From positions 1-12,308 of the forward strand of contig JACCZQ010000402.1 in NCBI GenBank assembly GCA_013695905.1: a stretch of DNA of 12,308 bases, in the 5' to 3' direction. Origin of the DNA: Chthoniobacterales bacterium (lineage in GTDB: Bacteria > Verrucomicrobiota > Verrucomicrobiia > Chthoniobacterales > UBA10450). The translations under genes and the position numbers were made by a program. Below, piece by piece: positions 8,079-9,731 of this stretch (the first letter of the stretch is position 1; every line of letters begins with the position of its first letter). Under the pieces are notes generated by a model, which had not been told where the DNA came from, searched no databases, and saw nothing but the letters and a program-made list of their open reading frames with translations.

Positions 8079-8138
8079 GGCCGGTGGTTGCCATTTCGCA
8101 CCTGCGACCGCAGGCTTTCGGCGGAAGCGAACGCTGAA

Positions 8139-9731
8139 ATGTCCTCCGCATTGCCGAAAGAAAAACCGGACCTCGCCAGGCGCGTCCACGACGTGCCGCA
8201 CAAGCCCGGTGTGTACCTGATGCGCGATCGCTTCAATCGCGTGATCTACGTCGGCAAGGCGCGCGATCTGCGGAAGCGCGTCGGCTCCTATTTCATGCCG
8301 TCGAAGATGGCGCAGGCGGACCTGAAGACGCGCGCGCTGCTCGAGGCGGTTTGGGATTTCGAATTCCACACCGTCGCCAGCGAGCCGGAGTCGCTGCTGC
8401 TCGAGGGGAAGCTGATCAAGGAATATCGGCCGCGGTATAACATCTCGTTCCGGGACGATAAACGGTTCCTCGTCGTGAAAGTCGATCCGACGGAAGACTG
8501 GCCGCGGTTCCGGCTCGCGCGCTTCAAGAAAGACGATCACGCGCGCTACTTCGGCCCTTATGCGCACGCCGGCGCGCTGCGGCAGACGCTGAATTTCATG
8601 CGGAAGAAATTCGGTGTGCTGACCTTCGGCCGCGGCTCACCGACCGAGCGGGAGCTGAAATCTTCCACCTACCAGGTGCCGTTCAGGTTGAGCGAGATTT
8701 CGGCGGAGCAATACCGCGAGCGGGTGGCGCAGGCGTGCGATTTCCTGGAAGGGCAGTCGCGGGAGCTGATCGGCGCCCTCGAAGACGAGATGCGGAAAGC
8801 GGCGGAGAAGCTCGATTTCGAGAAAGCCGCCGAGCTGCGCAACATGCTGGAAGATGTCCGTCGCACCACGAAGCCGATGCGGCGGTTCACCCGTCACAGT
8901 CTGCCGAGCACGATTGACCCGGAGAAGGATGTCGAGGCGCTTCGCGAGGCGCTGCAGCTGCACCGCGCGCCGGCGGTGATGGAGTGTTTCGACATCTCGA
9001 ATATCTCCACGACTCACGTGGTGGCCTCGATGGTCTGTTTTCGGAATGGCGTCCCGGATAAGGATAACTACCGCCGCTACCGCATTCGCACCGTGGAGGG
9101 GCAGGATGATTTCGCGAGTATGGCAGAAGTGGTGAGGCGGAGGTATTCGCGCGTGCTCCTGCAGGCGCGGGAGGTGAACCCGGAGGCGGCGGAGTTTTCC
9201 CAGGAAAATCCGCAGGAAGCGCTGGAGCGGCTCGACCGTAGCGCAAGTTTCCAACTTGCAGGGGAAGCCGGGCAAGTTAAAAACTCGCGCTACGTTCGTC
9301 TCCCGGACCTGATCATCGTCGATGGCGGGAAAGGTCAGCTCTCTTCCGCGTGCCAGGAGTTGCAGCGGCTCGGGTTGTTCGACCTGCCGATTATTGGGCT
9401 GGCCAAGGAGTTCGAGGAGATTTATCGGCCAGGTCGTGCGTTGCCGCTGCAGTTGCCGGCGGACTCCGGCGCGCTGCGCCTGCTCCAGCGCATTCGCGAT
9501 GAGGCACATCGCTTCGCCAACACGTATCACCAGTTGCTCATGAAAAAGCGCATCGGCGAGAGCGTGCTGGATGATTGCCCCGGGGTGAGCCAGAACCGCA
9601 AGAGCCTGCTGCTGCGAAAATTTGGGTCTGTGCAGCGGCTGCGCAAGGCGACCCCGGAAGAGATCGCCGCCACGGAGGGGATCGGTCCGAAACTCGCCGA
9701 GGAAGTGCATCGGTTTTTGCAGCGACATTAA
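8139..9731 (+). CDS. uvrC: Excinuclease ABC subunit C, atypical short form with an inserted repeat
   Basis: UvrC makes both incisions flanking a DNA lesion after UvrAB damage recognition. From the ATG at 8139 it has 530 residues against 610 in E. coli. It contains the GIY-YIG nuclease (PGVYLM 23-28, VIYVGKARDLRKRV 35-48), the UVR helix pair that contacts UvrB (about 210-244), the RNase H-like nuclease with D285 (ECFDIS), D324, D395 (IIVDGGKGQL) and H457 (RDEAH), and C-terminal helix-hairpin-helix motifs (475-527). Three things are odd. The cysteine cluster expected near 163-190 is absent. Only about 41 residues separate the UVR region from D285, where E. coli has about 160. Residues 367-386 are encoded by a palindromic repeat. 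A TTG at 8088 would extend the N-terminus, but GGAAG at 8123-8127 and the family alignment favour 8139. Confidence 0.93.
   Translation: MSSALPKEKPDLARRVHDVPHKPGVYLMRDRFNRVIYVGKARDLRKRVGSYFMPSKMAQADLKTRALLEAVWDFEFHTVASEPESLLLEGKLIKEYRPRYNISFRDDKRFLVVKVDPTEDWPRFRLARFKKDDHARYFGPYAHAGALRQTLNFMRKKFGVLTFGRGSPTERELKSSTYQVPFRLSEISAEQYRERVAQACDFLEGQSRELIGALEDEMRKAAEKLDFEKAAELRNMLEDVRRTTKPMRRFTRHSLPSTIDPEKDVEALREALQLHRAPAVMECFDISNISTTHVVASMVCFRNGVPDKDNYRRYRIRTVEGQDDFASMAEVVRRRYSRVLLQAREVNPEAAEFSQENPQEALERLDRSASFQLAGEAGQVKNSRYVRLPDLIIVDGGKGQLSSACQELQRLGLFDLPIIGLAKEFEEIYRPGRALPLQLPADSGALRLLQRIRDEAHRFANTYHQLLMKKRIGESVLDDCPGVSQNRKSLLLRKFGSVQRLRKATPEEIAATEGIGPKLAEEVHRFLQRH
9237..9294. repeat. REPIN-like palindromic element inside the uvrC reading frame
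   Basis: Two 23-base arms (9237-9259 and 9272-9294) are inverted copies agreeing at 20 of 23 positions around a 12-base centre. The ends read CGTAGCGC and GCGCTACG. Within the left arm 9243-9249 pairs with 9253-9259 (GCAAGTT/AACTTGC, loop TCC). The right arm has the matching hairpin 9272-9278 with 9282-9288 (loop AAA) and one A-C mismatch, which is a G-T wobble on the other strand. This is the same GTAGC plus 7-bp stem plus 3-nt loop plan as at 980-1070, but with an unrelated stem sequence. In the uvrC frame it reads RSASFQLAGE then AGQVKNSRYV with no stop. I recall the GCGCAAGTTTCCAACTTGC word as a dispersed repeat in this kind of genome; that was not searched. Confidence 0.78.

Follow-up and report, generated by a model that had tools for sequence, protein, structure and literature searches.

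The window analyzed here is a 12,308-nucleotide stretch of contig JACCZQ010000402.1 from a Chthoniobacterales bacterium, whose metagenome-assembled genome (MAG; designated G000) is in 561 contigs and is 76.7% complete. It carries a forward-strand uvrC gene (8139..9731; ATG at 8139, stop codon at 9729-9731) coding for a 530-residue protein that is supported by a 52-row alignment and contains GIY-YIG, UVR, RNase H-like endonuclease, and HhH domains (Pfam PF01541, PF02151, PF08459, and HhH; the scan was run on a longer frame beginning at 8088). Lying entirely within uvrC is a GTAG-tagged REPIN (9237..9294, forward strand), which is translated as UvrC residues 367-386 (RSASFQLAGEAGQVKNSRYV), the REP-coded stretch including SASFQLAGEAGQVK. 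The palindrome, GTAG...CTAC, spans 56 nt at 9238-9293, or 58 nt counting the outer C/G pair at 9237/9294. Its left REP arm, GTAGCGCAAGTTTCCAACTTGC (9238..9259, forward strand), matches the REP arm pattern with no mismatches; a 12-nt spacer (9260..9271, the forward-strand interval between the two pattern hits) separates it from the inverted right arm (9272..9293, reverse strand), which has one mismatch. These are the only two pattern hits in the window, against a mean of 0.01 expected in shuffles.

The element folds strongly, both as DNA (-19.7 kcal/mol, z = -5.75) and as RNA (z = -6.20), with none of 200 shuffles equally good in either case. A repeat search of the window at default settings returned no inverted pairs, presumably because the arms mismatch. 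The first-pass annotation had called the element REPIN-like, and its assignment as a REPIN is sound: there is a GTAG foot on an imperfect palindrome, an inverted REP pair with a short spacer, and copies dispersed through the genome. It departs from the strict definition of REPs as extragenic by its position inside uvrC, and its GTAG/CTAC ends differ from the CGTC end of the Rickettsia palindromic element. Two of the three forward phases are open and the remaining one begins with TAG; uvrC does read the element in a phase avoiding this stop, as had been noted, although this is not independent evidence, because any copy inserted in the TAG phase would disrupt its host gene and so escape notice.

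The REPIN sits within an expanded, length-variable loop of UvrC (residues 343-387; 9165..9299, forward strand) that runs from the RRRYSRVL helix to the strand preceding D395, as delineated by structural alignment, a survey of loops, and an AlphaFold2 model. The codons for D285 (8991..8993) and D395 (9321..9323), both on the forward strand, specify residues that are invariant in 52 aligned UvrCs and which we take to be part of the RNase H-like catalytic site; the spacing of 110 residues reported earlier is thus correct. In alignments with solved UvrC nuclease domains, residues 343-386 (44 residues) lie opposite two residues of 3c65, and residues 339-387 (49 residues) opposite two of 2nrt, so that the REPIN accounts for 20 of the roughly 42-47 extra residues, in keeping with the earlier description of an expanded loop adjoining D395. 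In the AlphaFold2 model, built with 52 sequences (mean pLDDT 81.1, pTM 0.51), the REPIN region is poorly modelled between the helix and the D395 strand (mean pLDDT 55 for residues 371-380, and below 50 for 377-381), and there are further low-confidence parts elsewhere.

Measured from the GQDDF motif to the LPDLIIVDGG motif, the loop among relatives comes in 79 distinct sequences with lengths of 26-108 codons; 102 of 130 loci yielded a loop, and the 28 without a motif match were excluded. None of the six congeners examined has the window's REPIN in uvrC. At about the same point, the uvrC of QHNR01000004.1 (L112) has a different GTAG...CTAC palindrome, with a folding energy of -28.9 kcal/mol compared with -17.1 (sd 2.9) in simple shuffles. 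Strongly folding inserts (z down to -6.7) occur in some other UvrC loops, and many loops are without them. Dispersed-repeat matches were found in 41 of the 79 loops, which is a hint only, as the search covered fetched loci and uvrC self-matches passed the filter. In L054, L059, L081, L165, and others, the loop is filled by other palindromic repeats with translations such as HPERSAAKSRDP...SLDSARDD.

A 60-base REPIN query against G000 gave at least 50 matches at E ≤ 10, the best elsewhere at 2e-12. The family was located at 38 places in the fetched contig stretches, merged by hand into 34 elements; of the 36 contigs with hits, this count covers 31, together with the RAYT contigs (198,608 bases including the window), and hits on the other five contigs have E values of 0.15-1.8. 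The mobile-repeat reading of the first-pass annotation therefore stands at both points where it was exposed: the arm recurs at many other places, and there are relatives that lack the residues. The exact arm had no match in a scan of viral contigs, and six plasmid records contain partial RAYT relatives at less than 60% identity.

Fifteen of the 34 elements lie in frame inside 14 recognisable genes, as judged by Pfam and NCBIfam matches to the longest open frames. The hosts are UvrC, UvrB, IspG, GcvP, PheT, CysS, IleS, ValS (two copies), XseA, FtsK, RarA, HrpB, an alcohol dehydrogenase, and an S9 peptidase; four are tRNA synthetases. Host family matches span the insert or flank it on both sides; some hosts (UvrB, IleS, and RarA) are truncated by contig ends and fall below NCBIfam cut-offs. 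One further REPIN, terminal in a homocysteine methyltransferase frame that a contig end truncates, was left uncounted; for the remaining 18, a host of this kind is absent or ambiguous. In 16 in-gene frames, the foot (GTAG or its variant) falls in phase 0 eleven times and in phase 1 five times; the third phase is unobservable where the foot is GTAG, because TAG would stop the frame, and the frames were picked as open, so openness itself is no test. The idea that REPINs are normally extragenic and an in-gene copy exceptional does not hold for G000, where in-gene REPINs are common. The UvrB copy is at 366-424 of L028 (contig 299), and two subunits of the same excinuclease thus carry the family in this genome.

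On contig 43 of G000, a RAYT lies between REPINs at 362-422 and 993-1052 that are 77-81% identical to the window copy. It scores 80.4 bits against NF047646 as a protein (cut-off 80) and 79.1, below the cut-off, in the genome search. The whole REPIN-RAYT-REPIN unit is in frame in valS: a single stop-free frame of 870 codons reads ValRS, REPIN, RAYT (with PNHVHVL and the Tyr motif), REPIN, and ValRS again. This frame scores 783.1 against the valS model (cut-off 704), although contig 43 ends inside valS. The contig 43 RAYT is probably the transposase of the uvrC REPIN family, a link that rests on the 77-81% identity of the flanking copies. G000 also has in-frame RAYTs in the CarB of contig 133 and in the RecG of contig 20, the latter truncated where the contig ends.

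With the ValS-RAYT fusion as query, 36 of 39 genomes matched at E ≤ 1e-60, and G000 and G042 matched through the RAYT. G042 belongs to a different family from G000 and its RAYT is flanked by a different REP type; its ValRS extends in full as far as the C-terminal arm and is the sole ValS match (E ≤ 1e-60) in a 100% complete genome. A third ValS-RAYT is in G029, from outside the 39-genome sample. For comparing ValS loops, a first pattern matched three loci and a looser one all 28 further loci; 27 of these 28 have loops of 23-48 residues, compared with 258 and 266 where a RAYT is present. The loop of G024 ValS (L231) is 208 residues long and matches neither RAYT profile. In the same ValS loop there are microsatellite-like in-frame repeats such as RSQKSEVRSQKSE in L226, L229, and L235, and the loop is REP-like in appearance in L221 and L224.

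We surveyed 58 genomes (G000 and relatives) for related RAYTs. From the matches listed in this search and in the ValS-RAYT search, 39 loci with long frames were fetched, followed by twelve more, and profiles (A1, A2) were built for the two embedded clades. The profile search made no selection on frame, and thresholds (E ≤ 1e-70 for clade B, E ≤ 1e-55 for clade A) were set where scores drop to the other clade or to fragments. Together the two clades have 67 members, 53 of them in open frames of at least 500 aa, and 52 with a named host. Clade B accounts for 32 matches, 30 of which are in such frames, with RecG (20), MetH (6), AlaS (3), and ThrS (1) as hosts; the fused RecG and AlaS proteins would have about 910 and 1160 aa. 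For clade A, 23 of 35 matches are in frames of this length and 12 are outside long frames; the hosts are CarB (16), ValS (3), Sua5 (2), and ClpB (1), with one lacking a nameable host (L270). This last is a 916-codon frame on contig 17 of G037, in which the sole match beyond the RAYT is to DUF4391, below the cut-off. L256 and L270 were examined and left out of the count of RAYTs embedded in known hosts, as was L243, which has an aminotransferase domain on one side only.

Forty-five of the 52 named-host loci were fetched, and in 42 of them there is host sequence on both sides on the same contig (the short host sides of L248 and L342 were judged by eye); L274, L050, and L279 have one host side on another contig. 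The seven further named hosts, all CarB, rest on matches running through the RAYT. For each host, Pfam domains lie on both sides in at least one member; ClpB, RecG, CarB, MetH, AlaS, and ThrS pass NCBIfam cut-offs, and Sua5 gave no NCBIfam match at the threshold used. Flanking REP palindromes are clear by eye at many of 40 embedded-RAYT end pairs, including ValS, ThrS, AlaS, MetH, and many RecG copies, and are less clear at CarB, Sua5, and contig-end copies. In copies outside long frames, again by eye, the RAYT frame runs into an apparent right REP in clade B (L313, L327, L328, L343, L344) and ends soon in clade A (L346-L349). A second partial clade B RAYT is present in a MetH frame (G009 contig 150, 3-344), and a clade B RAYT fragment in the CarB of G028 (L350).

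In a phylum-wide sample of 288 genomes, which shares G000 and G016 with the 58-genome set, clade B is present in seven, all seven times in frames of 568-1316 aa, with RecG (3) and AlaS (4, one having its N-terminal part on another contig) as hosts. Fifty of 80 named genomes, overlapping the other samples, gave 39 clade B matches in 31 genomes, with 34 in frames of at least 463 aa, a count that goes by frame length.

Because the 40 embedded RAYTs were chosen for long frames, openness is no test by itself. When 30 codons on each side are included, all 37 of 37 embedded RAYTs have stops in both other frames, and only two of 29 control RAYTs from other clades stay open for that distance beyond both ends; embedding is no effect of GC-rich open frames. 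The dN/dS values of the RAYTs are 0.08-0.17 in 12 of 16 hand-picked pairs, the other four being saturated, and those of the RecG host are 0.08-0.12 in eight pairs; these values are rough, with synonymous sites near saturation in most pairs. The low dN/dS argues that the embedded RAYTs are not decaying. HUH and Tyr motifs are kept in 37 of 40, and three have lost a catalytic residue. Flanks of 76 REP-like sites, some of them false, showed no 5′ target motif, with at most 0.18 bit per position.

Residence in these loops turns over. In RecG, the loop contains a RAYT in 20 of the 58 genomes and is without one in 30, by our reading of the matches; one genome is ambiguous and seven have no proper RecG match. 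The G013 RecG loop (L288), counted among the 30, has a REP-like scar, GRARVSRASRRDACAIQ, without a RAYT. Identities of RecG and of its RAYT are nearly uncorrelated (Spearman 0.13, p 0.08, over 190 non-independent pairs from 20 genomes), and different RAYT lineages occupy the loop in sister genomes; G032 and G026, for example, share 93% in RecG and 48% in the RAYT. Same-genus monophyly of the RAYTs is rejected in four genera with at least three rows (AU p values from 2e-72 to 3e-5), with constraints that were set after the tree had been inspected. On a 39-row host tree, presence and absence takes nine changes, or 14 with RAYT types as we named them. Part of the pattern is plain inheritance, because RAYT and host identity go together within same-genus pairs of one RAYT type (0.72-0.80 for the RAYT beside 0.79-0.86 for the host). 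Nine clade A copies in CarB nearly cluster in the tree. In five genomes from five families (G014, G050, G119, G208, and G319), the insert splits AlaS near model positions 371-379, and no second AlaS match was found in G119, G208, or G319. On G239 contig 9, about 337 bp (12386-12723) are inserted in frame in AlaS where the RAYT usually sits, and no clade B RAYT was found there. The turnover may reflect independent insertion, allele exchange by recombination, or precise loss.

We consider it very probable that the uvrC REPIN is a RAYT-dependent transposed insert tolerated in a variable loop, and that it is one case of a wider habit of protein-embedded RAYTs. A non-autonomous REPIN of a RAYT-dependent family would have transposed into uvrC, and the insert would have survived through its stop-free phase and a loop, perhaps surface-exposed, tolerant of extra residues. 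The source transposase would be the HUH/Tyr RAYT on contig 43, predicted to be translated as an internal segment of ValRS. As the ends of the two RAYT clades are open in the RAYT frame, insertion would add residues rather than kill the gene. Embedded in a small set of loops in essential or core proteins, a RAYT would be carried along by expression of its host, which may benefit the element, and its loss there would be harmless only if precise or in frame.

The first-pass annotation described the element as domesticated, which would mean that the insert is kept for an effect on UvrC activity, stability, or mRNA folding; in a similar vein, a RecG-RAYT could add a single-stranded DNA nuclease. 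The recurrence of DNA-metabolism hosts (UvrC, UvrB, XseA, RarA, and FtsK in G000, and RecG for 20 of 30 clade B RAYTs) and the low dN/dS would fit this, and a similar remark is made in PMC3733652. We nonetheless find it unlikely, since the insert is absent from six congeners, the loop is widely variable, the hosts also include MetH, CarB, ThrS, Sua5, and ClpB, and the RecG loop lacks a RAYT in 30 of 58 genomes and has unrelated RAYTs in sister genomes. Nothing indicates use of the lineage-specific insert in UvrC, and "tolerated mobile insert" fits better than "domesticated."

Inteins reside in frame, at the same sites, and patchily in essential genes. The embedded RAYTs share this patchy, lineage-swapping residence, which raises the idea that the inserts are removed before they matter, by protein splicing, as an intron, or by translational bypass. 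We regard such removal as quite improbable. No Rfam intron family was found at gathering scores in nine sources totalling 68,510 bases (among them the window and the ValS, RecG, CarB, MetH, and AlaS loci), with only two tRNAs matched; the inserts begin and end in translated REP sequence with no intein junctions seen by eye; and the frames are open throughout, a feature that bypass would not require. Unlike inteins, then, the RAYT and REP inserts show no splicing features by eye and are predicted to stay in the protein. REPs are also repeats able to mis-join assemblies, and the window's genome is in 561 contigs, so that the fusions could be chimeric joins in MAGs; this is less probable still, as many genomes share in-frame joins at identical sites and some of them are in few contigs, including RecG joins in G016 (10 contigs) and G038 (20 contigs), the sole ValS match of G042 (40 contigs, 100% complete), and the sole AlaS match of G208 (30 contigs). 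That the uvrC element is a chance palindrome or native UvrC residues, as a variable loop in a GC-rich genome might allow, is already contradicted by the folding z-scores and by the recurrence of the sequence at dozens of unrelated sites, and has next to no probability.

The preferred reading, a tolerated insert of a RAYT-dependent family, has published counterparts. GTAG REPs and their RAYTs, with in-gene REPs in several species, were described previously (PMC3733652), and that study counts in-gene copies as REPs. The Opitutus terrae elements, the most numerous in-gene GTAG REPs in that work, resemble those described here in GTAG ends, palindromes, inverted dimers, and 20-30 encoded residues, and likewise in occurring in repair and tRNA-synthetase genes of Verrucomicrobia in association with RAYTs. 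Many in-gene REPs there are in replication or repair genes, with "excinuclease ABC complex proteins" and "UvrABCD" named; the word uvrC is absent from its main text, but the study may already include a uvrC among its REP-bearing genes. The difference is that REPs are inside genes in the material available from that study, and RAYT genes are inside host genes here (PMC3733652). The earlier likening of the uvrC element to Rickettsia palindromic elements is fair as an analogy, both being short palindromes in frame in many proteins, but does not extend to kinship: according to the same source, the Rickettsia elements have CGTC ends, and CGTC repeats are without a dedicated transposase, unlike the GTAG ends and RAYT of G000 (PMC3733652). 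In TnpAREP subclass 2.4 (RAYT group 4), as described in PMC6006769, REPs are translated in frame within a RAYT gene having the HUH/Tyr core, as here; there the REP is inside the RAYT, and here the RAYT and its REPs are inside host proteins. That work notes a few unexpectedly long proteins, termed gene fusions or annotation errors and discarded (PMC6006769). The biochemistry of GTAG recognition is treated in PMC8266576. In a search that took in the open-access literature and few subscription papers, we found no report of RAYTs in frame inside housekeeping proteins. The uvrC REPIN itself is a further case of published in-gene REPs, and RAYTs embedded in essential proteins are new as far as we have seen.

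We lean toward a broader proposal, that for two Verrucomicrobiota RAYT lineages the main home is in the loops of essential or core proteins. There, complete transposases flanked by REPs readable in the RAYT frame would be translated as internal domains of RecG, CarB, MetH, AlaS, ThrS, ValS, Sua5, or ClpB. They would return repeatedly to particular loops, whether through independent insertion or through allele replacement, and seed in-frame REPINs such as that of UvrC, forming a protein-resident class of transposon with an intein-like ecology but unspliced. The published remark on REPs in repair and tRNA-synthetase genes becomes testable at large scale, and RAYT surveys with length filters would discard such fusions. 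The loops indicate natural insertion-tolerant sites in core enzymes, useful for structural biology and protein engineering. The picture of where a transposon can live would change as well, since these elements would occupy neither intergenic space nor a segment removed by splicing, but a permanent part of essential proteins.
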